The notes under the pieces are model-generated. The model searched no databases and was not told the origin of the DNA. It saw nothing but the letters and a program-made list of their open reading frames with translations. From assembly GCA_020846875.1 (NCBI GenBank), contig JADLDB010000007.1, forward strand, positions 1 through 53,033: a stretch of DNA of 53,033 nt, given 5' to 3'. The DNA is from Myxococcales bacterium. Lineage in GTDB: Bacteria > Myxococcota > Myxococcia > Myxococcales > Myxococcaceae. The translations under genes and the position numbers were made by a program. Below are positions 2,561 through 24,192 of this stretch, one piece after another (position 1 is the first letter of the stretch; every line of letters starts with the position of its first letter).

Positions 2561-3634
2561 TCACGCGCTTGGTGCCGGGGCCGCGGCGCGCGCCTCGTGC
2601 TCGAGCAGCCACTGCTTCCTCGCCAGGCCGCCGGCGTAGCCCGTGAGCGCCCCGTCGCTGCCCACCACCCGGTGGCAAGGAATCGCCAGCGCCAGCACGT
2701 TGGAGCCGATGGCCCTCGCCACCGCCCGCACCGCCTGAGGACGGCCCACCGCGCGCGCCACCTCCGCGTAGGTCCGCGTCGTCCCCGCCGGAATGTCTGA
2801 CAGGCACCGCCACACCGCACGCTGGAAGTCCGAGCCGCCTACGGCCAGGGGCGCCGTGAAGGACAGCCGCGCGCCAGCGAAGTACGCCGCCACGTCCGCC
2901 TCCACCGCGTCCAGCGGCCCCGTCACGCCCGGCACGACGGCCGCGCCCCGCTGCGCGCGCAGGCGCAACAGCTCCTTCTCCAGTCCGCGGCGGTCGGCGA
3001 ACTCCAGCAGGTGCACCCCTGCGTCGTCCCCCACCGCCACCATCGGGCCCAGCGGCGTCTCCAGCCACTTCGCGTGCAGCACCGCCGTCCCCTTCGCCCT
3101 CGCAGGCGGTGCGCCCAACACCTTGCGGAAGGCGTCGCGGAAGCCGCTGCCCGACTCCCACTCCGCCGCCTGCTGCGCCTCGATGACGGGCGCGCCACCG
3201 CGCAATTCGCGGAAGGCCTGGCCGAGGCGCCGGGCGCGGGCGAACTCCACGAAGGTCATCCCGTAGCGGGCGCGGAAGAGACGGCGGGCGGTGGACGGGT
3301 CCACCCCCAATTCGCGCACCGAAGCGCCGCTCCAGCGCTTCGACGGCTCCTTCTCCAGGGCCGTCACCAGGCGCTCCACCACCGGCGGGGCGGTGTGGGC
3401 GGACAGCGGCCGGCACCTCAGGCAGGCGCGGTAGCCGGCCACCATCGCCGAGCGCACGTCGCCGAAGAACTCGCAGTTCTCCTGCTTCGGCTTCTTCGCC
3501 GAGCAGGTGAGGCGGCAGAAGATGCCGGTGGTGCGCACCCCCACGAAGGCCAGGCCTTCGTACTCGGTGCTGCGCGCCAGCAGCGCGCGGTACAGCGACT
3601 TCGCGTCCGGGAGCGGTGAGGTGGTCGGTTCCAT
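2561..3634 (-). CDS. ada: Bifunctional Ada: DNA alkylation repair protein and transcriptional regulator
   Basis: 357 residues with the full Ada order. The N-terminal zinc domain has the four cysteines Cys40, Cys44, Cys71 and Cys74; in the family Cys40 takes the methyl group from phosphotriesters. An AraC-type helix-turn-helix region (about 90-170) is next, and the C-terminal O6-alkylguanine methyltransferase domain has the active-site PCHRV (Cys320). In the family this protein repairs methylated DNA irreversibly and, once methylated, activates alkylation-response genes including its own. The cluster of three activities in one chain matches E. coli Ada (about 354 residues). The frame extends upstream, but MEPTTSPLPD at 3634 gives the normal length. 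It appears monocistronic here. Confidence 0.93.
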   Translation of the reverse strand: MEPTTSPLPDAKSLYRALLARSTEYEGLAFVGVRTTGIFCRLTCSAKKPKQENCEFFGDVRSAMVAGYRACLRCRPLSAHTAPPVVERLVTALEKEPSKRWSGASVRELGVDPSTARRLFRARYGMTFVEFARARRLGQAFRELRGGAPVIEAQQAAEWESGSGFRDAFRKVLGAPPARAKGTAVLHAKWLETPLGPMVAVGDDAGVHLLEFADRRGLEKELLRLRAQRGAAVVPGVTGPLDAVEADVAAYFAGARLSFTAPLAVGGSDFQRAVWRCLSDIPAGTTRTYAEVARAVGRPQAVRAVARAIGSNVLALAIPCHRVVGSDGALTGYAGGLARKQWLLEHEARAAAPAPSA

Positions 3635-6834: not shown

Positions 6835-9753
6835 TCAGTCGAAGAGCGCCAGCAGGTCGTCCTTCGTCAGGCCCGCCGCGCCTGCGCCGCCGTCCAGCGC
6901 AGCCTCGAACAGCGCCCGCTTCTTCTCCTGCAAGGCGAGGATGCGCTCCTCCACCGTGCCCTGCGCCACCAGGCGGTAGACGAAGACGGGCTTGTCCTGC
7001 CCGAGGCGATGGGCGCGGTCCGCCGCCTGCGCCTCCACCTGCGGGTTCCACCAGGGGTCGACGAGGAAGACGTGGTCCGCGGCGGTCAGCGTGAGGCCGG
7101 TGCCGCCCGCCTTCAAGGACATCAGCATCACCGCCGGGCCTGCCGCCGCCTGGAACTGCTGCACCAACTCGCCGCGGTTGGTGGTGGAGCCGTCGAGGCG
7201 CGAGAAGGACAGCGCCGCCGAGGCCAGCGCCGGCTCGATGAGGTCCAGCATGCTGGTCCACTGGCTGAAGACGAGGCAGCGGTGCCCGTCGGCCACCGCG
7301 GTGGACAAGGCGTCCACCAGCGCCTCCACCTTCGACGACGTCTTCGCCTGCTGGCCCGGCACCAGCGCGCTGTGACAGGCGGCCTGGCGCAGCCGCAGCA
7401 ACGCCTCGAGCGCCTTGAGGACGCTGCCCCCCTGGAGCAGCGTCACCACCTCGGCCTTCGTGGCGGCGTGCACCGCGTCGTAGACGGCGCGCTCCTTCTC
7501 CTCGAGGGTGACGAAGCGGACGGCCTCGGTGCGCGCGGGCAGCTCGGGGGCCACCTCCCGCTTGAGGCGCCGCAGCAGAAACGGCGCCACCTTCTTCCGC
7601 AGGGCCTGCGTCTTCTCCACCGAGCCCGCCTCGATGCCTTCCGCGTAGCGCGCCTCGAAGTCGCGCCGCCCGCCGAGGAGGCCCGGGTTGGCGAAGTGCA
7701 TCAGGCTCCACAGCTCCTCCAGCCGGTTCTCCAGCGGCGTGCCCGTCACCGCCAGCCTCAGGGCCCCGCGCAGGCGGTGCGCAGCGCGCGTCACCTGGCT
7801 GTCCGGATTCTTGATGGCCTGGGCCTCGTCCAGCACCACCACCCGCCAGTCCTTCGCGGCCAGCGCGTCGGCGTCGAGGCGCAGCAGGGCGTAGGTCGTC
7901 AGCGTCACGTCGGCGTCGGACAGCGCGCGCGCGGGCCCGTGGTAGGTGTTGACGGACAGCGGCGGACGGAAGCGCTCCAGCTCCGCCTTCCAGTTGGCCA
8001 GCACGCTGGTGGGGCACACCACCAGGCTGCCCTTCTCCAGCGCGCAGATGGTCTGCAGCGTCTTGCCCAGGCCCATGTCGTCAGCCAGCACGCCGCCGAG
8101 GCCGGCGGACTTGAGGAAGGCCAGCCAGTCCACCCCCTGGCGCTGGTACGGCCGCAGCGTGGCCGCGAGTCCTTCCGGCAGCGCGGCGGAGGGCAGCTTC
8201 TCGAAGCCCTCGAGGAGGGGCTTGAGGCGCTCGAGGCCCGGAGGAGGAGGACACTCCAGCGACTCGCACACCTCGGCCAGCGCCGGCAGCGCGTGGTTGG
8301 CCACCTGCCCCGACTCCGCGCGCGCGTCGAGGAGCGCCTGCACCCGGGCGCCGTGGGAGTCGAGCCACGCCTGCGGCAGGGGCGCCCAGCCGCCGCCCTC
8401 GAGGGGAACGAGGCCCAGGCCTTCCTTCCACGCGCGCAGCACCGCCTCGCCCGACACCGACGCGCCGGCCGCGCCACCCTCCACGTCGAAGCGCAAGGAG
8501 AAGGCCGCGCGCGGTACGCCGAAGCCGTCGAGGCCGCCCTTCACCTCGAAGCGGGGGACGAGCGAGAGGCCCGTGCCCACCACCCGCCGCGCGTCGCCGG
8601 TGAGGCCGCCGCGGAAGTCCCTGAGTGCGTCCACGAAGCGCGCCAAGTCGGGCCCGGAGAAGACGGTGCGCCGCCCGGGCACCAGGCCCAGGGACTCGCG
8701 CAGGTGCTGCACCGCGCGCGCCTCCGCCGCCTCGTCGCGCAGCGGCATCGCGCCGCCCAGGTGCTTCAAGGTGCCCGCGTCGACGCGCGCGGAAGGCGGG
8801 CTGCCGTAGACGAGGGTGGGCAGCGCGGAGAGGCCGGTGTCCAGCTGCGCCAACTCCAGCTCGATGCGCGGCTTCAAGGTGCGGTCGATGCGCGGCAGCC
8901 GCCCGGAGTGGTTGTCGACGGGGAAGCGGCGCGCCAGCTCCGGCAGGACGCGGCTCATCAGCTCGCCCACGCGCCCCGCGTCGTAGCGCCGCACGCTGGG
9001 CAGGTTCTCAAGGTATGGGCCCGACAGCGCCGTCTCGCCCAGTTGGCACACGACTTCTCCGCAGCGCGCCACGCCGCGGCTCACCACCTCGGACACGCGT
9101 GGGTCTCTGTGGATGGTGACGACGACGTCGCCTCCCTCGTCCTCGACGCGCACGCGCGGCAGCACCACCTCCTTCGAGAAGGCCACCGGCTGCCCCTCGA
9201 GGAGGACGTTGCGCGCGCTCTCCAGCAGGCCCAGCAGGCCCTCCAGCCTCTCGGGAGGCAGCGCCCCGCGCCACGGGCGCTCCAGCACGCGGTCCGCCAG
9301 CAGGTCTCCGTTCTCCACCTGCAACGTGCCCAGCTGGCCGTTGGCCATCATCGACTGCAGCGAGGCGGGCAAGGTCTCGCGTCGGCCGTCGGCGTGGAGC
9401 AGCTCGCGGGCGACGGTGAGGCCGCCCTCCAGCTTGGTGAAGCGGTAGACGAGGCGCGTCCAGGTCTTCGCGGTGGTGGCGACGGCCTCTCCGCCCTGGG
9501 CCAGGGTGATGGCCGCGGCGACGACGTGCTCGCAGGGGTCGAAGGCGCCGTCGCAGCTGCACTCCCACGCGTCGTCCGGCGTGAGGTACACGGTGAAGGC
9601 CACGGGCCGGCCGGCCGGCTTCACCCGGAAGACGTACTCGGCGCCCTGGCGCTTCTCGAGGGCCGCGGCGCCGGCGCGGGCCAGCTTCACGCCGTTGGCC
9701 CACAGCGCGGGCTTGGCTTCTTCACGGATGGCGTCCAGCAGCGCCTGGGACAT
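6835..9753 (-). CDS. SNF2-family DEAD/DEAH helicase with N-terminal SWIM zinc finger
   Basis: 972 residues. A SWIM-type zinc finger (Cys65, Cys67, Cys74, His76) is near the N-terminus. A long middle region of unknown fold is followed by a SNF2 ATPase core: [15 protein letters not shown] (Walker A, motif I), [11 protein letters not shown] (motif II), [13 protein letters not shown] (motif III) and the C-terminal helicase half with [26 protein letters not shown] and DRAHRLGQ (motifs V and VI). Bacterial members resemble RapA/HepA and are thought to move on double-stranded DNA or remodel protein-DNA complexes; the exact role is unknown. The start at 9753 ([15 protein letters not shown]) gives the usual SWIM/SNF2 length. 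It probably shares a transcript with the following hydrolase. Confidence 0.94.
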
Positions 9754-13336: not shown

Positions 13337-14128
13337 CTACTTCACGCCCGGCGACACCTCGACCAGCCGGGCGCGCAGGGTGCGGGTGATGTTCTTCGGC
13401 GCGGCGGGGAAGTCGGACTGCTCGAGGTTGCGCACCGAGGCCATGAAGTCGTCGGCGCGCCACACGTACTCGCCGCCCGTCCAGCCGTGGGTGGCCACCA
13501 GGTACTCCACGCCGTCCTTCTCGAAGTGCCCTTCGATGACGGCCCAGTGGGCGCGCTTGCCGTCGTAGAGGCCGGGGTTGCCCTGCTGGTCCACGTCGAA
13601 GCCGATGAGCGCGGGGCGGCCCCGGTCGAGGACGGCGTGCAATTCCTCGAGGGTGAAGTCGGCGTTGACGGTGGCCTTGTAGCCGAAGCCGCGGGCCAGG
13701 GAGGCGAGCTGCGAGGCGTAGAACATCTCGCCCTGGGTGGTGAAGCCCTTCGCCTTCGCCTCGTCCAGCAGCCGCCGCGAGGTGTCGGCGGGCACGGAGT
13801 GGCTGTCCCAGCGCACCACGTCCTCGCTGCGCACGTAGGGGTTGAGGTTGCGCGCGTCCTTCTTGTCCCAGTAGTCCATCACCATCCCCAGCGCGTACAG
13901 CCCGCAGGTGGGGCCGTCCTGCACGCGGGCCGGCACGTCGGCGCCCAGCCGCAGCGCCTTCTTCGTCTCTGCCGCCAGCGCCGCCCGGTCCACCGCCGAG
14001 AAAGACGTGCCGTTGGCCAGCGTCACGGCGAGCGGATCCGGCCGGGCCGACGGCGTGAAGGACGGCGTCGTCACCGGGCGCCGCGGGGTGACGGTGGAGG
14101 TCGAGACCGGTCCAATCGGAGGAGGCAT
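13337..14128 (-). CDS. Papain-like cysteine peptidase (C39-like)
   Basis: 263 residues. A Thr/Pro-rich N-terminus of about 30 residues precedes a peptidase-like domain with the probable nucleophile Cys75 in DGPTCGLYALGMVMDYW and a probable catalytic His in RAHWAVIEGHF. The order Gln/Gly-Pro-Cys-Gly followed by His-Trp/Ala-Val matches bacterial C39_2 and related papain-fold proteins. It has no signal peptide, so a cytoplasmic role or non-classical export is possible. The substrate is unknown. I prefer ATG at 14128 (MPPPIGPVST), which has GGAGG-like bases nearby; a GTG at 14185 would add 19 residues. Confidence 0.65.
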   Translation of the reverse strand: MPPPIGPVSTSTVTPRRPVTTPSFTPSARPDPLAVTLANGTSFSAVDRAALAAETKKALRLGADVPARVQDGPTCGLYALGMVMDYWDKKDARNLNPYVRSEDVVRWDSHSVPADTSRRLLDEAKAKGFTTQGEMFYASQLASLARGFGYKATVNADFTLEELHAVLDRGRPALIGFDVDQQGNPGLYDGKRAHWAVIEGHFEKDGVEYLVATHGWTGGEYVWRADDFMASVRNLEQSDFPAAPKNITRTLRARLVEVSPGVK

Positions 14129-14491: not shown

Positions 14492-17365
14492 TCAGCCCTC
14501 CACCGCCACCATCCGCAGCTCACACACGTACCGCTGCCCCTCTGCGTCCCCAAGCCACACCTCGTCCGGCGCCGGGAGCATCTCGGTGAGGACCACCTCT
14601 GGCGCGCCGCGGAGGAACTTGCACGCCAGGTCCACCAGCGTGGGGCTCTCGAAGTCGACGTAGATGGGCTTCACCTCGGCGGGGCTGCGCAGGAAGACGA
14701 AGCGGGGGAAGCCGCAAGACAGGGCCCAGGCCGTCGCGCCGAGGAAGCGCTCCTTCGCGTCGGAGGAGGAGGCCCAGGCGAGGGCTTCGGTGCCGACGCG
14801 CCAGGCCTCGCGGGCGACGACGACCTCGTCCAGCCAGACGCGCGGCCGGTGGCGGCGCCAGGAGAAGAGGTGCAGCTCGCTGGCGGCGCGCAGCTTCATC
14901 CGGCGCTCGAGGACGTGGAGGAGGGGGAAGGCGGGGCTTCCCTCCCCCGAGGGGGACACCCACAACCCGCCGCGCCGGCGCGTCACCACCAGGCCGGCGA
15001 CGCGCAGCACCCGCGAGGACGGCAGCGGCGAGGTGTTCCGGAAGCCGAGGTCCACGTGCCAGCGCGTGGAGTCCTTCGCCAGCCGCGCGTCGTGCGTGGA
15101 GCGCGCGAAGTCCTCCCACGGCACCGGCGTCACGTGCGGCCCGGGCAGGTCCGCCGCGTACAGCTTCTCCAATTCGGCCCGCACCGGACAGTGGGCCAGC
15201 ACCGACAGCGTGGTGAAGGGCGTCACCCCCACGTGCAATTCGCCCAGCACCGGCACCACCTCGCCGCTCCGCACCGCCAGCATCACGTCCGGCGCGTGGT
15301 GCTTCGCGCCCGGCCAGGCCTCGCCCTTCGCCTCCAGCGCGCGGCCCAGCTTTCGGCGCACGTCCGCGCTGGAGAAGCGTTGTTCGCGCGACGCCTCGTC
15401 CAGCGGCATCGCCTTCGCGAAGCGCGCCTCGAGCGCCCTCGCCTCCTTCGCCACCACCGCCGGCGGCTGGCCGTCGAACAAGCCGCCCGTCTCCCGCCAC
15501 AGCACGTCCAGCGGGATGCGGCCACCGCCCAGCGCGTCAAAGCGGCGCTCGACGCCCCCAAGGAAGCCCTGCGCCACCCGGCTGGTGAAGGTGCGGGCCG
15601 CGTCGAGGAGGAGCGCGAGCGGCGCGGCCAGCTTCGCCCGGAGATTTTCGCCGAAGCGCCAGGTGCCCGCCCGCCGCGTCTCCTCGTACACCAGCGCGCG
15701 GCCCGCATAGGCCCGCCCCTCGTGACGCGTCGCCGCCTGGCCGGTGAGGGCGGTGAAGGTGGCCTCGAGGTGCTCCAGCGCCGTGCCCAGCGCCGCCGCG
15801 TCCCCCGCCGCCGAGGCGACCTCCACCCGCCCGCCCTCGAGGGCGTTGAGCGTCCGGGTGAGGGTGTCGCGGAGCGCCGGCGCGAGGGACTTCGCCGCCG
15901 CGAGGAGCCGCCGCGCCGGGTGCGGCTCGATGGTCATGGGCAGCGCCGGGAGCAGCAGCCCGAGCTCCACGAGGCGGAAGAGGGCGTCCACCGTCTGCGC
16001 CTCGTCGGGGAAGCGCGCGGGCCAGCGCCGCTTCGCCGCCGCCGCCAGCGCCAGGGCGTGGCGCTTCCCGTCCGCGAGCGAGAGGAGCGCCGCGTCGTCC
16101 TCCGACGCCTCCGGCTCCCCTGCCACGCGCAGGCGCACCTCCGGCGCGCGGCTCGCCCGCGCCGCCCGCACGCTGGCCTCCCGCTCGACCGCTGGGGCGC
16201 CCACCCGCCCTGCCCGTGCGCCGTCCGCTGCCGCGCGGCTCGCTCGCCCTGCCCGCAGGCTGCCCGCCTCCTCGTCCGCTGCGGCGCCCACCCGCCCTGC
16301 GCGCAGACTGCCCGCCTCCTCGTCCGCCGCGGCGCCCACCCGCCCTGCCCGCAGGCTGCCCGCCTCCTCGTCCGCCGCGTCGCCCACCCGCCCTGCCCGT
16401 GCGCCGTCCGCTGCCGCGCGGCTCGCTCGCCCTGCCCGCAGGCTGCCCGCCTCCTCGTCCGCCGCGGCGCCCACCCGCCCTGCCCGTGCGTCGTCCGCTG
16501 CTGCGCCCACCCGCCCTGCCCGTGCGCCGTCCGCTGCTGCGCTGACCCGCCCCGCCTGCAGGCTGTCCGCCTCCTCGTCCGCCGCGGCGCCCACCCGCCC
16601 TGCCCGTGCGCCGTCCGCTGCTGCGCGGCTCGCTCGCCCTGCCCGCAGGCTGTCCGCCTCCTCGTCCGCCGCGGCGCCGCGAGGCCCACGCCCGCCTCCG
16701 ATGACCCGCGCCTCCTCGGCTCGCTCCAGCCGCACCGAGCCGGGGAGCCGCAGCGGCACCAACTCCGCCAGTTCGCGGCACGCCGCCAGCGCATCGACGA
16801 CGGCTTCCACCACCCACGGCTCGAAGAACGTCTCCCGCGCGTCGAGGAGCTTGGCCCCGGGCGTCGCCGTGATGGCCGCCGACTGCCCCGCGTCCCAGCG
16901 GCCCCACCCCACCGGCCCGAAGAAGCCGATCGTCTCGCACTTCGCCGCGTAGCGCTGGAGGTAGCTGGCCACCAGCAACTCCTTCTTCCGCGCGCGCGAG
17001 TCGTCCCGCTCCGGGTGCCGGAGGAGGGCGTCGAGCCCCGTCACCACCGCGCCCCGGTTCTGCCAGGTGACCGCTTCGCGAAACCGCGACGAGGACGCCG
17101 TGGCGCGGAGGAGCGTCCGCTGGCGCTCGCGCGCCGAAGGGAAGGCCGCGTCGAACGCTGGACGGGTGAGAGGGTCCGTCGCCGCCAGGCGCGCCAGCGC
17201 GGAGAGGCCGGGCTCCGCGAGCGCGAGGACGTCGCTGAGGGGGAAGCCCGCGCCGCGGACCAGCACGTGCGGCCAGAGCGTCCAGGGGGACTGGAGGAAA
17301 ACCCGCCTTCCCCTCTCCCCCTCCCTCTCCCCACGGGGAGAGGGTGATGGGCGCTGCTTCAGCAC
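14492..17365 (-). CDS. Lantibiotic dehydratase-type protein (small LanB, glutamylation domain only)
   Basis: 957 residues. Family hallmarks: an N-terminal WTLWPHVLVRGAGFP, the central RYAAKCETIGFFGPVGW, and a C-terminal end with KPIYVDFESPTLV and LTEMLPAPDEVWL. These belong to the LanB N-terminal (tRNA-Glu-dependent glutamylation) domain. No SpaB_C elimination domain follows, so this is a small LanB, as in split dehydratases or peptide aminoacyl-tRNA ligases. A 160-residue block of Ala/Arg/Gly repeats interrupts it at about residue 228-390. It follows the ATP-grasp gene with a 7-bp overlap and belongs to an operon starting with a 46-residue peptide. The GTG at 17365 is uncertain: the first 22 or so codons are made by a palindromic repeat, and no better start is visible. 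Confidence 0.8.
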   Translation of the reverse strand: MLKQRPSPSPRGEREGERGRRVFLQSPWTLWPHVLVRGAGFPLSDVLALAEPGLSALARLAATDPLTRPAFDAAFPSARERQRTLLRATASSSRFREAVTWQNRGAVVTGLDALLRHPERDDSRARKKELLVASYLQRYAAKCETIGFFGPVGWGRWDAGQSAAITATPGAKLLDARETFFEPWVVEAVVDALAACRELAELVPLRLPGSVRLERAEEARVIGGGRGPRGAAADEEADSLRAGRASRAAADGARAGRVGAAADEEADSLQAGRVSAAADGARAGRVGAAADDARAGRVGAAADEEAGSLRAGRASRAAADGARAGRVGDAADEEAGSLRAGRVGAAADEEAGSLRAGRVGAAADEEAGSLRAGRASRAAADGARAGRVGAPAVEREASVRAARASRAPEVRLRVAGEPEASEDDAALLSLADGKRHALALAAAAKRRWPARFPDEAQTVDALFRLVELGLLLPALPMTIEPHPARRLLAAAKSLAPALRDTLTRTLNALEGGRVEVASAAGDAAALGTALEHLEATFTALTGQAATRHEGRAYAGRALVYEETRRAGTWRFGENLRAKLAAPLALLLDAARTFTSRVAQGFLGGVERRFDALGGGRIPLDVLWRETGGLFDGQPPAVVAKEARALEARFAKAMPLDEASREQRFSSADVRRKLGRALEAKGEAWPGAKHHAPDVMLAVRSGEVVPVLGELHVGVTPFTTLSVLAHCPVRAELEKLYAADLPGPHVTPVPWEDFARSTHDARLAKDSTRWHVDLGFRNTSPLPSSRVLRVAGLVVTRRRGGLWVSPSGEGSPAFPLLHVLERRMKLRAASELHLFSWRRHRPRVWLDEVVVAREAWRVGTEALAWASSSDAKERFLGATAWALSCGFPRFVFLRSPAEVKPIYVDFESPTLVDLACKFLRGAPEVVLTEMLPAPDEVWLGDAEGQRYVCELRMVAVEG
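16195..16680 (-). repeat. Coding minisatellite inside the LanB-type gene
   Basis: About 490 bp of degenerate tandem repeats. The main unit is 48 bp (16 residues, AADEEAGSLRAGRVGA-like), alternating with shorter 36-39 bp units (AADGARAGRVGA-like). All changes keep the frame. The block is rich in Ala, Arg, Gly and Asp and should form a flexible or helical insert. Near-identity between units implies recent expansion by slippage or unequal crossover. Confidence 0.85.
17323..17344. repeat. Perfect GC palindrome at the LanB start
   Basis: Ten-base arms (CCCTCTCCCC / GGGGAGAGGG) separated by two bases form a perfect hairpin. It lies within the first codons of the LanB-type gene and just downstream of the ATP-grasp stop. 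Such palindromes are typical dispersed intergenic repeats. Here it could reduce read-through into, or translation of, the LanB gene, or mark a mis-called start. It has no T-run, so it is not a standard terminator. Confidence 0.6.
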
Positions 17366-18732
17366 GGATACACGATGGTCATGCCCATCTCGTCCGGCGG
17401 CGGCGAGAGGATGAGCCCCGGCGCGTCCGGCGCGTACCGCGCCAGCGCCCCGCAGAAGCGCCCCTGCACGATGAAGGGCGTCAGCTCCACGCGGACGTCA
17501 ATCCACTCCACGTGCCGCCCGTCCACCAGCACCGGCATCTGGGCGCGCGGCATCGGGTAGTACGCCTGCACCACGTACTCGTTCCCCAGGGCCGCCCGCT
17601 CCACCGCCTCACGCCAGGCCTTCGGCTTCGTGGAGATGCCCACGAAGGTGTCCTTCCCCGAAAACGCCCGCTTCAGCACCAGCCCCTGCCGGTCCTTCGT
17701 CACCCACCCCACGTCGTCGCCCGACACGTAGCGGGTGTCCGCCGCGTCCAGCTCGAAGCCGTCGTCCAGTTTCGCGGGGAACAGCCCCAGGTCCAGCATC
17801 CACGGCAGGGTGCCCTTGTCCACCGCCACCCCCGCCCAGGGCTTCAGAATCGGCGCCCGCCCCACGTGCGTCCCGCGCAGCACCTTCGCCTCGCGGCGAA
17901 ACTGCTCCGGCGTGTCGAGGAAGCTGCACCCGATGGTCACCACCACCACCAGGTCCACTTCCCGCTTCGAGCCCTTCACGAAGGCCCGCCCGTTGCGCAC
18001 CGTGAAGTCCCCTTCGTGCGCCAGGGACACCGTGAAGCCGCGCGCCTTCAGCTTCTGGAGCGCCTGCTGCACCTGGTGCCGCACCCGCGGGGTGCTCTCC
18101 ACCACGCTGGGCCACTCCTCGCTGTGCGAGACGAGCGCCACGTGCGCCGGGCGCTTCCACCCGAGCGTGCGGTCCATCAGGTCCACCCAGTGGCCGAAGG
18201 GCTTCTCGATGACGTCCGCGCGGAAGGGCTTGCCGTCGAAGAGCGGGTGGTGGGCGAAGAGGTCCGCCAGCACGTCGGTGTACCCGATGCTGACGATGAC
18301 GCCGTTGCCGTAGTTGATTTCCGAGAGGACGTAGCGGTCGCGGTAGAGAAACCCGTCCGGGCGGAAGTGCGAGAGGAACAGCTCGCTGTCCACCGCGCGG
18401 CGCAGGTCCACGTTCCGGAAGAAGGCCTCGCCCACCGGCACGCGCTGGTGGAGCCACCTCGGCTGCGCGGCGTGACGGCGGAAGTGCCCGGCCACCTGCG
18501 CCACCGCCCGGTGAAGGCCCAGGCTCAGTTGCTCGAGGCGCTGCCGCGGAATGAACAACGGCCGCAGCGGGATTCCGACCCCGTGCAGCGTGTCGACGCC
18601 CCGGCGCTTCCACCGCGACTCGAACTGCTGCACGACGTCCCGCATGCGGCCGTGGTGCTGCTTCAGCCTGCGACGGAACAACGCCACCAGCGCCTCGTCT
18701 TCCGGGAGGCGCTCTGCTCTCTCAGGTGCCAC
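17359..18732 (-). CDS. Circularly permuted ATP-grasp-like enzyme in LanB operon
   Basis: 457 residues. It resembles the glutathionylspermidine-synthase-like, circularly permuted ATP-grasp group. The N-terminal half has RYVLSEINYGNGVIVSIGYTD; the C-terminal half has the nucleotide-binding-type GLVLKRAFSGKDTFVGIS, EYVVQAYYP, and a final strand region RFCGALARYAP. The same order is seen in the gene at 21713-22960. Family members form amide bonds by way of acyl phosphates; the substrate here is unknown, possibly the neighbouring peptide. The chain ends in YPC. The GTG at 18732 has a strong ribosome binding site (GGGAGGGGAG at about 18737-18745); farther upstream the frame only shadows the peptide gene. 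Confidence 0.6.
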   Translation of the reverse strand: MAPERAERLPEDEALVALFRRRLKQHHGRMRDVVQQFESRWKRRGVDTLHGVGIPLRPLFIPRQRLEQLSLGLHRAVAQVAGHFRRHAAQPRWLHQRVPVGEAFFRNVDLRRAVDSELFLSHFRPDGFLYRDRYVLSEINYGNGVIVSIGYTDVLADLFAHHPLFDGKPFRADVIEKPFGHWVDLMDRTLGWKRPAHVALVSHSEEWPSVVESTPRVRHQVQQALQKLKARGFTVSLAHEGDFTVRNGRAFVKGSKREVDLVVVVTIGCSFLDTPEQFRREAKVLRGTHVGRAPILKPWAGVAVDKGTLPWMLDLGLFPAKLDDGFELDAADTRYVSGDDVGWVTKDRQGLVLKRAFSGKDTFVGISTKPKAWREAVERAALGNEYVVQAYYPMPRAQMPVLVDGRHVEWIDVRVELTPFIVQGRFCGALARYAPDAPGLILSPPPDEMGMTIVYPC

Positions 18733-18766
18733 CGACTCCCCTCCCGTTGCTACCGAGGGGCGGCGC

Positions 18767-18907
18767 TCACTCCAGCGGCTTGCCCGGCTTCGGCCCCCAG
18801 CCCTTCCTCGGCTTCGGCGCCTCGGTGGTGGGCTTGGACGGCTTCGCCGGCTTCCGCTCCGTCTTCGGGGTGCGAGGGGTGCTGCCCGGTCCAATGCGCT
18901 TCGCCAT
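18767..18907 (-). CDS. 46-residue Lys/Pro-rich peptide, candidate RiPP precursor or scaffold peptide
   Basis: Starts MAKRIGPGSTPRTP and ends GKPLE. It has about six Ser/Thr, one Trp in KGWGPKP, no Cys, and repeated KPxKP-type motifs. Third codon positions are about 93% G/C, like real genes here. GGGAG at 18915-18919 lies seven bases before the ATG, a good ribosome binding site. The stop is 34 bp before the ATP-grasp start, so it heads the operon with ATP-grasp and LanB-type genes. I infer a substrate or scaffold peptide for these enzymes. It could instead be an unrelated small basic protein; nothing in its sequence alone proves modification. Confidence 0.6.
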   Translation of the reverse strand: MAKRIGPGSTPRTPKTERKPAKPSKPTTEAPKPRKGWGPKPGKPLE

Positions 18908-18941
18908 GACGTTTCTCCCGAGTGCGACGTTTCACGACACT

Positions 18942-19040
18942 CTACACCTCCACCACCCCGACGGGAAGCAGGCCCCCGCCCTGGTGCACGTTGACGACGG
19001 GGCCTGCGTGCACACGGGCAAAGACACCGCCGAAGCGGTC
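18942..19040 (-). pseudogene. 3' relic of a second ATP-grasp-like gene
   Basis: Bases about 18949-19035 match 21720-21806, the 3' end of the ATP-grasp-like gene at 21713-22960. The match is 70 bases exact, then one mismatch, then 16 more identical. The relic keeps the frame of RFGGVFARVHAGPVVNV and ends GVVEV-stop where the intact gene ends GVVDE. Upstream of it the similarity stops. It lies just upstream of the small peptide gene, so the operon seems to have been assembled next to, or in place of, an older ATP-grasp gene. Confidence 0.8.
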
Positions 19041-19093
19041 CCTGTGCATGAAGCTGCAGCAGCTCGCGCTGCCGTCGGGGCCATGGGGCGACC

Positions 19094-21562
19094 TCAGAGC
19101 CCCAGGTACACCCGCAGCTCCGTCCTGGTCCACACCGCCACGTCCGGCTTCCCGTCGAGGTTGGCGTCGTACTGCACGCTCGCCTCCCCTGCCCAGGGGC
19201 CGTCCGGGCCCGCCTGGAACGCCCCCGTGCCCAGCCCGAAGCGCACCGGCTGAAGGGGCAGCGACTGCACCGCCAACAGGTCCGCCTTCCCGTCCCGGTT
19301 GTAGTCGGCGCAGAAGAGGCCTCCGGCGGGGCCGAAGTTCGCGGCGGAGGCCGGACCGGCGCTGAAGCCCGCCTGCGCGTCTCCCAGTAGCACCTGGTAG
19401 CCGTTGATGGTCGCGCCGCGGCCCATCACCGCCAGGTCGGCCTTCCCGTCGCCGTTGAAGTCCGTCGTCACCGCCTTCTCCGGCAGGGGCGACACGGTCG
19501 CTGCCGCCGCGCTGGCGATGAAGGTGCCGTTGCCTACCCCGGACAGCACGCGCACCTCACCGCTGGTGGCCACCAGGCCCGCTCCGGAGCCGACCGCCAG
19601 GTCCACGCCGCCGTCGCGCACGAAGTCTCCGACGACCAGGCTGTAGGGGTAGACGTTGGCGCCCGAGCCCACCAGGGTGCTCGTCGGCGCGGACAGCCCC
19701 CCGTCTCCCTGGTTGAGCAGCACGCTGACCCTGCGGGTGCCGCCGGTGAAGTCGTAGTACGCGATGCACACGTCAGGGCGCCCGTCGCCCTGCAGGTCGG
19801 CCGTCTGCAGCACGTAGTTGGTCTGCGCCCCTGGTGGGGTGGCCGGCAGTTGGTAGCCCGCCTGGAAGGTGCCGTCGCCGTTGGACAGGTAAATATGGAG
19901 GGCGTTGAGCGAGCCCAGCGACAGGTGGTCGTCCAGCCCGTCGCCATTGACGTCCACCAGGGCGATGCCGAACAGGTTGCCCCCGAAGCCGCTGGTGGAG
20001 GTGGCCGGCGTAGGCGCGGAGGGCTGGCCGCTGGCGGACCCCAGAAAGACGACCGAGGGCTGGCTGCCGTTGCGGGGGTTCAGCACCAGGTCCGGGTAGG
20101 CATCTGCGTTGACGTGGCCCGTCACCAGCAGCGCGCCGTTGGTACCAGACGAATACGCGGAGGTGAGCGGCGGCGCGAAGACGGCCCCCCGGCAGGTGCC
20201 AGGCGCGCCCAGACAGATGAAGGAGGCGCAGTCCCCCGGCGCGTTGCAGCTCTGCCCGGTGGCGCAGCGCGAGCACGAGCCCCCGCAGTCCACGTCCACC
20301 TCGCCCTGGTTCTTGATGCCGTCTACGCACGACGGATCCGCTGCGCACAGGGAGCCCAGGCACAGGCCGCTGGTGCAGTCGGTGCCCGTCAGGCAGCGCT
20401 GGCCCATGGTGCAGCGCCGAGGACAGCCGCCGCCGCAGTCCTCGTCGCTCTCGGTGCCGTTGCGCGCGAAGTCCGTGCAGCTAGGGGGTAGGCAGACGCC
20501 CGCGTCGGCGTCGCAGACGTAGTCCAGGCAGTCGTTGCCCACCCGGCACCCCTGTCCCGTGGGGCAGCGCAAGGGACAGGTGGGCCCACCACAGTCCACG
20601 CCTGTCTCGTCGCCGTTGTGGTTGGTGTCGCTGCAAGACGCGGAGGCGCACTTGCCGGCGGTGCACAGTCCCGACTGGCAGTCGGTGTGGCCAGCGCACC
20701 CGCCGTCGTCCGCGCAGCGGGCCACGCAGTCCGGGCCACCGCAGTCCACGTCCGTCTCGGTGCCATTCCTCTGGGTGTCGGAGCAGGTGTTGGCCTGGGT
20801 GCACACGCCCGCCGCGCACCCGCCCGTCTGACAGTCCGTGGGCGCGCTGCAGCCCTGGCCAGCCCGGCACTTCGCGGGGCAGGTCCCGCCGCAGTCCACG
20901 TCCGTCTCGTCGCCGTCCTTCACGCCGCTGGTGCAGTGGGTCGCGGAGCCGCAGCGGCCCGAGACGCAGTTGGCGGTGTCGCAGTCGGAGGAGGTCGCGC
21001 AGCGTTGGCCCTCGCGGCACTTCGCGGGGCAGGCGCCCCCGCAGTCCACGTCCGGCTCCGCGGTGCTCACCAGGCCGTCCATGCAGGTGGCTGCCTGACA
21101 CAGGCCCAGCCGACACACGTCCCCCGAGGGGCACACCACACCCTGGCAGGCTCCGTCGACGCAGGCGTTGTTGACGCACGCCTCGCCCAGGGCGCAGTCG
21201 CCGGTGGTGCAAGCGGAGCTCAAGCAGGTGCCGCCCAGGCAGGCCTGACCGGTGGGGCACACCACCCCCAGGCAGGCGCGCTCCACGCACGCCTCCGAGG
21301 GACATACCTGCGACGGGCTGCAGTCGGCGCCGGCGCAGTCCCTGGCGTAGCAGGCGGACTTCACGCAGGCCTGGGCGGCGCCGCAGGCGGTGTCACAGGC
21401 CCCGCAGTGGGCGTCGGACTGGGTGAGGTCCACGCACTCGGCGCCGCAGGCGGTGAGGCCGGCGCGACACTCAGGTGGCCCCACCGGCGAGGTGCTGGAG
21501 CAGGCGGTGAAGAGCGGGGACAGGACCAACAGGCAGGTGAGGCGCAGGCAGGCAGTGGCCAT
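19094..21562 (-). CDS. Large Cys-rich lipoprotein with VCBS/FG-GAP-like repeats
   Basis: 822 residues. Lipoprotein signal MATACLRLTCLLVLSPLFTACSS. Residues about 30-190 are Cys-rich short repeats (C.....C....C). Residues about 190-450 hold seven or so copies of a motif like NG.ETDVDCGG.CP.RC.. followed by DC.SG.C, each probably a disulfide-bonded module. Residues about 455-822 form a beta-propeller-like region with calcium-type loops (DVNGDGLDD, DFNGDGKADL, DYNRDGKADL, DANLDGKPDV), as in integrin-like VCBS/FG-GAP proteins. It is likely a surface-anchored adhesin or binding protein. The start at 21562 is set by the signal. It looks unrelated to the flanking enzymes. Confidence 0.85.
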   Translation of the reverse strand: MATACLRLTCLLVLSPLFTACSSTSPVGPPECRAGLTACGAECVDLTQSDAHCGACDTACGAAQACVKSACYARDCAGADCSPSQVCPSEACVERACLGVVCPTGQACLGGTCLSSACTTGDCALGEACVNNACVDGACQGVVCPSGDVCRLGLCQAATCMDGLVSTAEPDVDCGGACPAKCREGQRCATSSDCDTANCVSGRCGSATHCTSGVKDGDETDVDCGGTCPAKCRAGQGCSAPTDCQTGGCAAGVCTQANTCSDTQRNGTETDVDCGGPDCVARCADDGGCAGHTDCQSGLCTAGKCASASCSDTNHNGDETGVDCGGPTCPLRCPTGQGCRVGNDCLDYVCDADAGVCLPPSCTDFARNGTESDEDCGGGCPRRCTMGQRCLTGTDCTSGLCLGSLCAADPSCVDGIKNQGEVDVDCGGSCSRCATGQSCNAPGDCASFICLGAPGTCRGAVFAPPLTSAYSSGTNGALLVTGHVNADAYPDLVLNPRNGSQPSVVFLGSASGQPSAPTPATSTSGFGGNLFGIALVDVNGDGLDDHLSLGSLNALHIYLSNGDGTFQAGYQLPATPPGAQTNYVLQTADLQGDGRPDVCIAYYDFTGGTRRVSVLLNQGDGGLSAPTSTLVGSGANVYPYSLVVGDFVRDGGVDLAVGSGAGLVATSGEVRVLSGVGNGTFIASAAAATVSPLPEKAVTTDFNGDGKADLAVMGRGATINGYQVLLGDAQAGFSAGPASAANFGPAGGLFCADYNRDGKADLLAVQSLPLQPVRFGLGTGAFQAGPDGPWAGEASVQYDANLDGKPDVAVWTRTELRVYLGL

Positions 21563-21712
21563 GAGCCTCGGAGCCTAGCAGCAGGAGAGCGGGGCTGACG
21601 GGACGCCTGGCGACTTCAGCGCGAGGCGCGCGGCCGACGGCCGGCCTTCGGGGCGGTGGCGAGGCCGCACGGCGCCACCCGGAGCGCCGAGGGGCGCGAG
21701 GGCTGCGACGCC

Positions 21713-22960
21713 CTATTCATCCACCACCCCGACGGGAAGCAGGCCCCCGCCCTGGTGCACGTTGACGACGGGGCCTGCGTGCACACGGGCGAAGACACCG
21801 CCGAAGCAGCCCCGGTGCACCCAGGTGCTCAAGACGACGTTCCGCGCCGCCAGCGTGACGCCCCCGTGTTCGTCGGGCACCGGGAAGTCCTCCGTCGGTG
21901 GCGCCCGGTACTCCTGGAGGATGAAAGGCCGAGGGGCCTCCAGTGCTTCGCAGAGGCTCCGGCTCCAGGCCGCGTCGTCCACCGCGGGCCCCACCACCAC
22001 CCCGAAGCCGCCGTAGCCGTCCGACGGCTTGAGCACCCACTGGGCGCGCGCAGCCGACACGGCTTGCTGGTGGGCCCTCTCCAGCCGGCGCGTCTTCAGG
22101 TACGCGGCGCGCGCGGCGGGGCCGGGCTCCACCTCCGGCAGGAGCGAGAGCAGCACCTTGGAGTCCGCCACCACGCTGCCGGCCGGGTTGTCCACCGCCA
22201 CCGCGCCCTTCACCCAGGCGTCCAGCAGCGGGCGGCTGGCCTCCGCGAAGCGGGGCTCGAGCAGGTCCTCGAGGCTGTCCCGCACCACCCGGTCCACCCG
22301 CCGGCCTCGCCAGCGCAGCGCCGCGCCGTCGAAAGAGAGCTCGTCGGGGTCCGCGAGGACCGCGTCCACGCCTTCCGCGCGGAACACCTGCGCCACCAGC
22401 GCGTGGTCGAACTGCACGAAGGCGCTGCGCTGAATGGCGAAGACGACCAGCCCGGCCCGCAAAGGCTCAGGCGCGATGGAGCGGCGCAGCGAGGACGCCA
22501 CCGACTCGCAGGAGGCGCCTGCCAGGGCCAATTCCGGCGCGAAGTGCTCGGCCAGCACGTGCTGCATCCCCATGCCGGACGGGTCGCCCGCCTGCACCTC
22601 CAGCAGCCCCAGCGCCTGCGTCTGGGGCTCGAAGGTGAAGTCGAAGCGCACGTGGCCGAAGGGGTGGCCGCCGCGAATTTCCTCGCGGGCGCGCTCCACC
22701 ACCAGGGCGGGCAAGGGCACGGCGTCGGCCAGCGCGCCCGCCTCCCAGCGCTGGAGCACGCGGTGCATCGCCTGCCAGAGCTCCAGGGTGGTGCGCGCGA
22801 GGAGTGCCTGCTGCGCTCGGCTCAACAGGTAGGGCCGCAGCACCGGCGCCAGCGTGTCCATGCGGTGGCGCGCGCGCAGGGCGAGGAAGCGGCCCAGCGC
22901 CTCGCCGCCCTCTGTGACTGCGCGCGCGTTGAGCAGCTCGGACGCCTCGCCCCGCGTCAC
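21713..22960 (-). CDS. Circularly permuted ATP-grasp-like enzyme paired with an alpha-oxoamine synthase
   Basis: 415 residues from a GTG that overlaps the stop of the upstream synthase gene (GTGA). Recognisable parts: LLEVQAGDPSGMGMQHVLAEHF in the N-terminal half; QWVLKPSDGYGGFGVVVG (ATP-binding-type Lys/Gly loop), PFILQEYRAPP and FGGVFARVHAGPVVNVHQGGG near the end. This matches the glutathionylspermidine-synthase-like ATP-grasp fold and aligns with the 457-residue protein at 17359-18732. I infer a ligase that acts on the product of the coupled alpha-oxoamine synthase; the substrate is unknown. Its 3' end was duplicated at 18942-19040. Confidence 0.65.
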   Translation of the reverse strand: MTRGEASELLNARAVTEGGEALGRFLALRARHRMDTLAPVLRPYLLSRAQQALLARTTLELWQAMHRVLQRWEAGALADAVPLPALVVERAREEIRGGHPFGHVRFDFTFEPQTQALGLLEVQAGDPSGMGMQHVLAEHFAPELALAGASCESVASSLRRSIAPEPLRAGLVVFAIQRSAFVQFDHALVAQVFRAEGVDAVLADPDELSFDGAALRWRGRRVDRVVRDSLEDLLEPRFAEASRPLLDAWVKGAVAVDNPAGSVVADSKVLLSLLPEVEPGPAARAAYLKTRRLERAHQQAVSAARAQWVLKPSDGYGGFGVVVGPAVDDAAWSRSLCEALEAPRPFILQEYRAPPTEDFPVPDEHGGVTLAARNVVLSTWVHRGCFGGVFARVHAGPVVNVHQGGGLLPVGVVDE

Positions 22961-24192
22961 GCCGTCTTCCCTGGCCGCTCGAGGCGCTCGCGCGCGTCCG
23001 CCAGGGCCCGGGCGAAGCCTTCAAGCTGCGCGTCGGTGTGCTCGACGGTGAGGCACAGCCGGAGGATGGACTTCCCCCGCGCCACCACCGGGAAGAAGGC
23101 CACCGACGGGAGGTACCCGCAGGCCAGCAGTGCCTCACCCAGCGCGCGCGCGAGGTCCTCGTCGCCCACCGCCACGGTGCGGATGGGGCTGAAGTCGCGG
23201 GCGTCGCAGCCCACGCGCTCGTCGAACTTCGCCACCCGGGCGCGCAGCGTCTTCTGCAGCGCCTCCACCGTGCCGTCCAGGTGCAGCTCCACCACCTCCA
23301 GCGCGGCGCCCACCACCGAGAAGTCCAGCGGCGCCGAGAAGGCGTACGTCATGCCGAAGCTTCGCACCCTTTCCGCCTGCCACTTCGAGGGCAGCAGCAC
23401 CCCGCCGCCGTTGCAGCCGAAGCCCTTGGCCAGCGAGTAGGTGATGAAGACGTGGCCGGGCAGCTCTTCGCCGAAGGCCCCGCGCGCGTAGCCCTCGCCG
23501 TTCTTCCCGAAGATGGAGGTGCCGTGGGCGTCGTCGAGGTACAGCACCAGGGGGTAGCGCTCGGACAGCTCGAGCAGCTCCGGCACGGGGCTCACCCCCC
23601 CCATCGAGTACACGCCGTCGGCCAGGTACACCACCGTCTGGCCGCGCGCGGACGCGTCTTTCAGCTCGTCCTCCAGCGCGTTCAAGTCGTTGTGGCCGAT
23701 GACGGTGACGGCCTCGGCTTCCTCGGCGATGACGGGGCGGAGGAACTGCATCGAGGCGTGCGAGTTCTTGTCGAAGACGAAGCGGGTCCGACGCGGGTAG
23801 TCGTCGGGCAGCAGGTCCCCCGAGGCCAGCAGCGGCAAGGTGGACATGTGCGCCGTCGTCACCGAGGGGAAGGTGATGGCGTGGCCGCGGAAGAGGCGGG
23901 ACAGCTTGTCCTCCAGCGCCACGTTGGGCTCGATGGAGAGGCGGGTGCGCGCGCAGCAGAAGTGCAAGCCGTACTGGTCCAGCACCCGGCGGGCGCCTTC
24001 CAGCGCGCGGGGGTGGGTGTCGAGGCCCAGGTAGCTGCAGTTGATGAACTCCACCGCCTCGCGGCCGTCGGGCAGGCGCACCGTCTTGCCGTCGCGGGCG
24101 CAAAAGTGGGTGTGCATCAGGCCCGCGTCGCGCGCGCGGGAGATGCCCGGCTCGGCGGCCTGCACGACGAAGCTGGTGTTCCGGGCGGACAT
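22957..24192 (-). CDS. Alpha-oxoamine synthase (PLP-dependent, AONS/KBL/SPT family)
   Basis: 411 residues, the normal length. The family condenses an amino acid with an acyl-CoA, losing CO2. Seen: FINCSYLGLDTHP near the N-terminus, DKNSHASM (PLP-stacking His region), YLDDAHGTSIFGKNGEG (the DDAHG motif), and YSLAKGFGCNGGG, containing the probable PLP lysine. It could be 8-amino-7-oxononanoate synthase, a serine palmitoyltransferase, or a dedicated synthase for a secondary metabolite or signal. The translational coupling to an ATP-grasp enzyme and absence of biotin genes make the last more likely. Start MSARNTSF at 24192. Confidence 0.85.
   Translation of the reverse strand: MSARNTSFVVQAAEPGISRARDAGLMHTHFCARDGKTVRLPDGREAVEFINCSYLGLDTHPRALEGARRVLDQYGLHFCCARTRLSIEPNVALEDKLSRLFRGHAITFPSVTTAHMSTLPLLASGDLLPDDYPRRTRFVFDKNSHASMQFLRPVIAEEAEAVTVIGHNDLNALEDELKDASARGQTVVYLADGVYSMGGVSPVPELLELSERYPLVLYLDDAHGTSIFGKNGEGYARGAFGEELPGHVFITYSLAKGFGCNGGGVLLPSKWQAERVRSFGMTYAFSAPLDFSVVGAALEVVELHLDGTVEALQKTLRARVAKFDERVGCDARDFSPIRTVAVGDEDLARALGEALLACGYLPSVAFFPVVARGKSILRLCLTVEHTDAQLEGFARALADARERLERPGKTA

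Follow-up and report, generated by a model that had tools for sequence, protein, structure and literature searches.

The pearlins of the 3-thiaglutamate (tgl) and ammosamide/bha systems combine a peptide (TglA, AmmA/BhaA) with LanB-type peptide aminoacyl-tRNA ligases (PEARLs) such as TglB (PMC9303977, PMC11117183, PMC11962472). The residues diagnostic of a PEARL are Asp542, Glu564-x-His and Glu801-x-Arg803 in TglB, while split LanBs carry Tyr and Leu at the PEARL Asp and Arg sites (PMC11117183). The ATP-site residues were tested in BhaBCTrp (PMC11962472), and PEARLs have been proposed to be descendants of ATP-grasp ligases (PMC11117183).

The locus analyzed here resembles the pearlin systems in that a LanB protein without an elimination domain is accompanied by a short peptide of its own whose C-terminus is conserved. 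The same ATP-site residues are present and, by analogy, a C-terminal extension from aminoacyl-tRNA would be expected. Unlike in the pearlins, the peptides here end in P[VL]E rather than PLALA. The LanB is joined by an alpha-oxoamine synthase (AOS) and by a pair of circularly permuted ATP-grasps, and neither a flavin enzyme nor an MNIO of the TglHI type was seen at the locus. In the LysW/ArgX-LysX systems, a small carrier protein has a conserved C-terminal Glu onto which an ATP-grasp loads a building block. Neither LysX nor ArgX is circularly permuted, LysW is a zinc protein of acidic character, and none of these is related in sequence to the proteins of the locus.

Organization of the gene cluster

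The window (the whole stretch of 53,033 nucleotides that was analyzed, from a Myxococcales bacterium) contains the following features.

22957..24192, minus strand: AOS, a BioF/Kbl-like PLP enzyme that heads the conserved cluster (Pfam and NCBIfam matches)
21713..22960, minus strand: ATP-grasp A, the second circularly permuted ATP-grasp (Pfam matches, 3n6x profile match)
19094-21562: FG-GAP gene inserted within the operon
18935..19057, minus strand: duplicate of the ATP-grasp A 3' end, 123 bp, 89% (direct repeat, translations)
18915..18919, minus strand: ribosome-binding site GGGAG, 7 nt 5' of the peptide ATG (sequence)
18767..18907, minus strand: gene of the putative scaffold/precursor peptide, 46 aa (translation, position and C-terminus kept in relatives, pN/pS)
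18767..18778, minus strand: codons for the C-terminal Pro-Leu-Glu and stop, proposed ligation site (conservation of the ending)
17359..18732, minus strand: ATP-grasp B, predicted circularly permuted ATP-grasp ligase, 457 aa (AlphaFold2 model, VIA-align, invariant motif)
14492..17365, minus strand: PEARL-type LanB, 957 aa, without elimination domain (Pfam Lant_dehydr_N, invariant residues, model of a homologue)
16145..16718, minus strand: in-frame tandem-repeat insertion in LanB, rich in Ala, Arg, Gly and Glu (Tandem Repeats Finder)

The genes thus run, all on the minus strand, in the order AOS, ATP-grasp A, peptide, ATP-grasp B and LanB, with the FG-GAP insert between the second and the third. 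AOS and ATP-grasp A share 4 bp at the stop of AOS, the peptide gene is separated from ATP-grasp B by 34 bp, and the LanB open reading frame overlaps the ATP-grasp B stop codon. The succession of the last three genes agrees with a first-pass annotation made from the sequence without database searches. The three genes of its operon are real, but AOS and ATP-grasp A, which belong to the operon as well, had been overlooked. In the window genome these two genes are split from the peptide gene by the FG-GAP insertion, at which the duplicated 3' end of ATP-grasp A lies beside the peptide gene; no FG-GAP gene occupies the equivalent position in the other loci.

The peptide and its conserved C-terminus

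Positions 18767-18907 (minus strand) translate as MAKRIGPGSTPRTPKTERKPAKPSKPTTEAPKPRKGWGPKPGKPLE*. The 46-residue reading frame, the GGGAG seven bases 5' of its ATG and a third-position G+C of about 93% (93.5% as recalculated) had been correctly described, and the peptide genes of L030, L032, L033, L035 and L036 likewise have GGAG-type sites before them. Peptides in the matching position and with the conserved C-terminus were detected in these five loci and in L037. Seven of eight peptides end in P-[VL]-E-stop, while that of L034 is one residue shorter (RPV-stop). Such an ending occurs in 1 of 4,010 other reading frames, and the binomial chance of its recurrence is ∼5e-25. Chance alone does not account for the peptide, since loci of other genera and phyla have one in the corresponding place, again with the C-terminus conserved. 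Coding constraint, which had been named as a check, is supported by a pN/pS of 0.35 for the peptide genes of L032 and L033. On sequence evidence, the peptide gene is genuine, conserved and constrained as coding sequence.

The N-terminal parts of the peptides are unrelated between the myxobacterial and the non-myxobacterial groups, which indicates that selection acts on the C-terminus. The non-myxobacterial peptides are 91-123 aa in length, are not Lys/Pro-rich and retain only the P-[VL]-E ending. Richness in Lys and Pro, by which the peptide had first been described, was rejected as a conserved trait, as the alphaproteobacterial peptides lack it; the conserved feature is the C-terminus (W-x-P ... 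P-[VL]-E-stop).

The same comparison bears on whether the pathway might yield the Lys/Pro peptide itself, for instance as a cationic, proline-rich antimicrobial peptide with a C-terminal cap added by the ligases. The KPxKP composition of the peptides of the window, L030, L032 and L033 would suit such a role, but those of L034, L036 and L037 are not of the cationic Lys/Pro type and nevertheless share the ending (L034 one residue short). Moreover, neither a signal peptide nor a dedicated transporter is conserved at the loci, and we regard this role as improbable.

The LanB protein

The sole Pfam match above the cut-off in the LanB is Lant_dehydr_N (PF04738; 2.1e-14), and no C-terminal domain was detected, in keeping with the earlier description of a glutamylation-type domain without SpaB_C. 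As encoded, the protein (957 aa) is not the small LanB that had been proposed; it becomes one after a low-complexity repeat insertion of ∼200 aa, missing from every aligned homologue, is discounted, whereupon the LanBs measure ∼690-760 aa.

Residues D693, E709-x-H711 and E949-x-R951 of the window LanB are invariant in all of the full-length homologues aligned, as are their counterparts in the L036 LanB (D413, E435-x-H437 and E669-x-R671), where the spacing is 22/234 versus 22/237 in TglB. By this assignment, made by motif and spacing from alignments of its homologues only, the LanB carries residues of the PEARL type and not of the dehydratase type. Searches of PDB sequences with the LanB and ATP-grasp B profiles yielded nothing relevant, so that fold comparison was needed. 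The model of the L036 LanB matches TbtB, MibB and NisB, with TbtB the best by Foldseek E-value.

The match to TbtB and the Lant_dehydr_N domain would both be in line with a split glutamyl-tRNA-dependent dehydratase acting on a lanthipeptide- or thiopeptide-like precursor, which the first-pass annotation had offered alongside a PEARL. Of these two alternatives the PEARL is retained. The Asp and Arg specific to PEARLs are invariant, where split LanBs have Tyr and Leu; no protein with the PF14028 elimination domain was found in the window genome or in seven related genomes, in a search whose positive control was the presence of PF14028 in 42 of 92 family genomes; and the peptide lacks both Cys and a conserved Ser/Thr core. 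The PEARL residues and the absence of PF14028 largely refute the dehydratase, which we consider very improbable.

The ATP-grasp proteins and AOS

ATP-grasp A matches the Pfam families CP_ATPgrasp_2 (1.2e-10) and CP_ATPgrasp_1 (2.6e-7), and by profile it also matches 3n6x, a glutathionylspermidine synthase of solved structure (5e-9). ATP-grasp B has no Pfam or NCBIfam match, and its assignment consequently rests on the predicted structure. The AlphaFold2 model (pLDDT 86.5, pTM 0.87) was aligned by VIA-align over nearly its full length with YgiC (Z 25.8) and GspS (Z 23.5), with 356-369 residues aligned at an rmsd of 4.2-4.8. The modelled fold is of the glutathionylspermidine-synthetase/YgiC type, which bears out the likeness to glutathionylspermidine synthase claimed earlier. 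Z is 21 for Cp1B and ∼8 for the ArgX/LysX structures. The alignment of homologues contains the invariant residues R124-x-D126 and E138-x-N140, which we take to be equivalent to R316, D318, E330 and N332 of GspS. The predicted fold and the R-x-D ... E-x-N metal/ATP motif are shared with glutathionylspermidine synthetase, YgiC, YjfC and the eukaryotic-type glutathione synthetase. In contrast to that group, ATP-grasp B shows only 10-15% identity to it, lacks a Pfam match and has a PEARL gene and a peptide gene as its operon partners.

AOS matches Aminotran_1_2 in Pfam (2.6e-16) and NF005697/PRK07505 in NCBIfam (386.6 bits, versus a cut-off of 342 bits).

Distribution among genomes

The gene set is rare in bacteria and mostly myxobacterial: ten of the 13 known loci are from myxobacteria and two from alphaproteobacterial MAGs, while one is without taxon assignment. 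AOS stands first in all ten loci whose contig extends far enough, ATP-grasp A was found in 11 of the 12 loci that could be assessed (missing from L030), and the tree of ATP-grasp B agrees with that of LanB. The search of plasmids for further loci gave no ATP-grasp B. Among 391 genomes of the order of L036, the sole match was its own genome, and 294 genomes of the phylum of L037 contained, apart from its own, only distant ATP-grasps, none of which adjoined a LanB. Two other pairs of a circularly permuted ATP-grasp and a LanB (L074 and L076) lack a P[VL]E peptide.

The expectation that a small open reading frame would always lie upstream holds for eight of the 13 loci, in myxobacteria and alphaproteobacterial MAGs, where the peptide directly precedes ATP-grasp B. 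It fails, in the way that had been named as a refutation, for five loci of one genus, g26 (L026-L029 and L031), in which the enzymes are present and a recognizable peptide is absent from the locus. A scan of these loci for conserved small reading frames produced no candidate, and a search of the g26 genomes with the DNA pattern for PG[KR]P[VL]E-stop and with a profile produced nothing convincing elsewhere.

These five loci would be accounted for if the LanB and the ATP-grasps acted on a free small molecule (the AOS aminoketone, amino acids), with the peptide in an accessory, inhibitory or immunity role. The closest plasmid relatives of the LanB clade, on Streptomyces plasmids, lie mainly beside NRPS genes, so that the LanB could act on a small molecule. 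SnaE, the NRPS-associated PEARL of Stackebrandtia nassauensis, extends a nonribosomal intermediate (PMC11212132), and the fungal Cp1B, which has the ATP-grasp B fold and ligates small acids, is an ATP-grasp enzyme that belongs to the NRPS-independent pathway to E-64 (PMC12568646). The likeness to SnaE would, by analogy, be that of a LanB-type enzyme for amide bond formation; unlike in SnaE, a conserved ribosomal peptide takes the place of NRPS genes. The strong conservation of the free P[VL]E-stop terminus amid varying N-termini, and the tight coupling of the peptide gene 5' of ATP-grasp B, speak against a free small-molecule substrate, which we judge unlikely.

Proposed pathway

In the favored reading, to which we assign a probability of about 0.68, the cluster is a pearlin-like operon in which the C-terminus of the peptide serves as a scaffold that is loaded by the PEARL and the ATP-grasp ligases, and the loaded part is then tailored and cleaved off. 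A conserved free C-terminus combined with varying N-termini is expected of a C-terminal ligation substrate. The 46-aa peptide would be a scaffold dedicated to the pathway, with a Lys/Pro arm that is flexible and variable and terminates in W-x-P ... K-P-[VL]-E-COOH, the terminal Glu being the putative attachment point. The LanB, acting as a PEARL, would use ATP to phosphorylate the C-terminal carboxylate and would then join this carboxylate to the amino group of an aminoacyl-tRNA. The two ATP-grasps, both circularly permuted, would have their carboxylate-phosphate chemistry in common with glutathionylspermidine synthetase and may create additional amide bonds at this terminus or close to it. 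Given an amino acid and an acyl-CoA, AOS would produce an aminoketone, the amine that would suit the ATP-grasps most naturally; the loaded units are probably this aminoketone and a tRNA-borne amino acid. The loaded residue or residues would subsequently be tailored and cut off by a protease, although no protease common to the loci was found. That result, the g26 loci without a recognizable peptide, the shortened L034 peptide and the NRPS neighbors of the closest plasmid LanBs weigh against this reading. A more specific proposal, put forward tentatively, is that the PEARL and the two GspS-like ATP-grasps act sequentially on one P[VL]E carrier C-terminus, ligating the aminoketone and the tRNA-borne amino acid in a new class of scaffold-peptide pathway.

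Few pearlin pathways have been worked out so far, and the locus would add one. As had been claimed of the gene set, no paper describing a PEARL with circularly permuted ATP-grasps and AOS was found in the literature searched. If the proposal is true, the pathway would be distinct in its scaffold end, in scaffold N-termini unrelated across phyla, in having tRNA-independent peptide ligases beside a PEARL and in its aminoketone-forming enzyme; given the distinct scaffold end, ligases and aminoketone enzyme, its product should be a new type of small molecule. LysW-like carrier logic would be fused with pearlin chemistry, and PEARLs would operate beside their presumed parent ATP-grasp family. The descent of PEARLs from ATP-grasps could be tested on such a cluster, in which both would remain together on a single peptide, and C-terminal protein labelling is a conceivable use of the P[VL]E tag and its ligases.

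The position of the LanB that matches, by motif, the CCA-contacting Arg208 of BhaBCTrp appears to be occupied by Lys, invariant in the alignment (K92 of L036; K142 of the window LanB); the charge is kept but the residue differs, a point against the favored reading.

Organization of the operon

The three minus-strand genes reported in the first-pass annotation (peptide, ATP-grasp-like enzyme and LanB) are present exactly as described, by sequence, translation and Pfam, as are the GGGAG motif seven bases before the peptide ATG and the 34 bp to the next gene; third-position G/C of the peptide gene, given as about 93%, was computed as 93.5%. The conserved operon exceeds these three genes and also includes those of an alpha-oxoamine synthase (AOS) and a second circularly permuted ATP-grasp (ATP-grasp A), which overlap by 4 bp.

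22957-24192, minus strand: AOS (NF005697, above cut-off), start of the conserved unit
21713-22960, minus strand: ATP-grasp A (CP_ATPgrasp_2, 1.2e-10)
19094-21562, between ATP-grasp A and peptide gene: FG-GAP/Cys-rich (MXAN_6577-like) gene
18767-18907, minus strand: peptide, 46 aa, RBS GGGAG
17359-18732, minus strand: ATP-grasp B
14492-17365, minus strand: LanB (sole Pfam match above cut-off, Lant_dehydr_N)

The FG-GAP gene, absent at the corresponding place in relatives, is an insertion into the operon of this genome, which left a duplicate of the ATP-grasp A 3' end. The two copies (18935-19057 and 21706-21828; 123 bp, 89% identical) flank the gene, the former adjoining the peptide gene.

Distribution of related loci

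Of the 95 other genomes examined from the family, nine contained a clear match to the ATP-grasp B protein. A profile search of one-per-species bacterial and archaeal genomes yielded 12 loci. Nine of these are myxobacterial; the other three come from MAGs of Sphingomonadales (L034) and Rhodobacter sp. (L036) and from an unassigned bacterium (L037). The window brings the total to 13. ATP-grasp B is followed by LanB in all 13, with an intervening gene in L033 and in five loci of a single genus (L026-L029 and L031). The AOS gene comes first in all 10 loci with a sufficiently long contig, and ATP-grasp A occurs in 11 of 12 assessable loci (L028 counted on a weak match; missing from L030). Since the ATP-grasp B and LanB trees agree in their main groupings, the two genes have travelled as a pair.

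The non-myxobacterial clusters carry variable extras, including MaoC, an HpcH/CitE-type lyase, a zinc-type (PIG3-like) oxidoreductase, a 2OG-Fe(II) oxygenase, an alpha/beta hydrolase and a 299-aa protein of unknown type. In L037, ATP-grasp B is frameshifted near its start (7360-7524), the N-terminus lying in a different frame, through either assembly error or decay.

The LanB as a putative PEARL

In TglB, Asp542, Glu801 and Arg803 separate peptide aminoacyl-tRNA ligases (PEARLs) from glutamylating LanBs, and in PEARLs a conserved His replaces Asn two residues past Glu564; split LanBs carry Tyr and Leu at the Asp and Arg positions (PMC11117183). These diagnostic residues were tested further in PMC11962472. 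In our alignment D413, E435-x-H437 and E669-x-R671 (L036 numbering) are invariant, with spacing near-identical to TglB; the window equivalents are D693, E709-x-H711 and E949-x-R951. The same residues are kept in LanB relatives on Streptomyces plasmids, mostly next to NRPS genes. As a departure from known PEARLs, the Arg of BhaBCTrp that contacts the tRNA CCA end (PMC11962472) appears to be replaced in these LanBs by an invariant Lys.

The L036 LanB model (pLDDT 76) significantly matched only TbtB, MibB, NisB, MadB and GodF. No protein with the elimination domain PF14028 was detected in the window genome or in seven other cluster-bearing genomes; the domain is present in 42 of 92 family genomes. 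The window LanB also contains an in-frame expansion (16145-16718) of ~84-87-bp GC-rich tandem repeats, encoding ~200 low-complexity residues and found in no homologue.

The ATP-grasp enzymes

ATP-grasp B has no Pfam match. Its model (pLDDT 86.5) aligned over nearly its full length (Z 21-26) with YgiC, YjfC, glutathionylspermidine synthetase (GspS), glutathione synthetases and the fungal ligase Cp1B, and thus supports the GspS-like assignment made initially. R124-x-D126 and E138-x-N140 are invariant and spaced like GspS R316, D318, E330 and N332. Enzymes of this kind activate a carboxylate by phosphorylation and then join it to an amine. It has been proposed that PEARLs descend from this ATP-grasp family (PMC11117183).

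The peptide and the proposed pathway

The first-pass annotation raised the question of whether a short Lys/Pro ORF always lies upstream. An ORF immediately precedes ATP-grasp B in 8 of the 13 loci; no such ORF was recognised in the five single-genus loci, and Lys/Pro richness is not general. The peptides of the window and of four other myxobacterial loci have in common a stretch rich in Lys/Pro or in Pro, in which W-x-P stands 10-17 residues before the C-terminus; in L030 this stretch is the C-terminal half of a longer peptide (113 aa). The L034, L036 and L037 peptides (91-123 aa) have a different, mutually related N-terminal domain. Seven of the eight peptides end in P-[VL]-E-stop (L034, R-P-V-stop). 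Of the remaining 4,010 reading frames with at least 25 codons in the same loci, one has this ending (binomial, about 5e-25). A GGAG-type RBS precedes the peptides of the window, L030, L032, L033, L035 and L036. Substitutions between L032 and L033 fit a coding gene, in line with the coding constraint considered at the outset (codon-position identity 0.92, 0.81 and 0.67; pN/pS 0.35, and 0.22 for ATP-grasp B). In L030, the locus without ATP-grasp A, an additional ~100-aa ORF (MPKKKSGAGLLALFETQRK...; about 2870-3180) lies between peptide and ATP-grasp B.

We read the operon as a scaffold-peptide pathway, resembling those of the pearlins (small molecules built on a scaffold peptide); its substrates, order of steps and product we infer from the observed architecture and conservation. 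The free conserved C-terminus would be the point of attachment, to which the LanB would append an amino acid from aminoacyl-tRNA; the ATP-grasps would form further C-terminal amides, plausibly with an AOS-derived aminoketone, before tailoring and release. The MaoC, CitE-type lyase and reductase of the alphaproteobacterial clusters are acyl-CoA-handling enzymes and would fit acyl-CoA supply for the AOS.

In the main rival reading, the substrates of the enzymes would be free small molecules, as they are for the LanB-type SnaE (PMC11212132). It draws support from the single-genus loci, where the enzymes are intact, no such peptide was found in the locus, and pattern and profile searches of the genomes gave nothing convincing. 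Against it stands the C-terminal ending conserved among otherwise unrelated peptides.

As the first-pass annotation held, no described pathway pairing a small LanB, this ATP-grasp and a peptide was found in the open-access literature. The terms "lantibiotic dehydratase" and "circularly permuted ATP-grasp" did not occur together in any paper there, and none combined oxoamine synthase, RiPP and precursor peptide; the titles and abstracts of open-access pearlin papers did not show this gene set. With coverage limited to open access, these absences are not proof.

Additional genes near the clusters

Downstream of the window LanB, on the same strand, a C39-like/ACTMAP-like cysteine protease gene (13337-14026), not conserved at other loci, is a possible releasing protease. 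A Peptidase_M24 (Xaa-Pro aminopeptidase type) gene directly follows LanB in L037 (10936-12720), and a gene that looks similar lies convergently in L036 (13721-15529, minus strand); in view of the Pro-rich peptide, these could possibly process the scaffold.

In the Sphingomonadales cluster, two similar genes (L034, 320-1108 and 2435-3250) lie immediately upstream of the AOS gene, the second matching the Avidin family (3.8e-7). Streptavidin occurs with stravidins and, by analogy, the placing of a biotin-binding protein next to the BioF-like AOS may point to a product related to biotin.

Other myxobacterial small LanBs adjoin circularly permuted ATP-grasp-like genes (L074, 7102-11054; L076, 9124-12883), without a P[VL]E peptide and, in one of the two, in a PKS region; the pairing may therefore be broader than this cluster.
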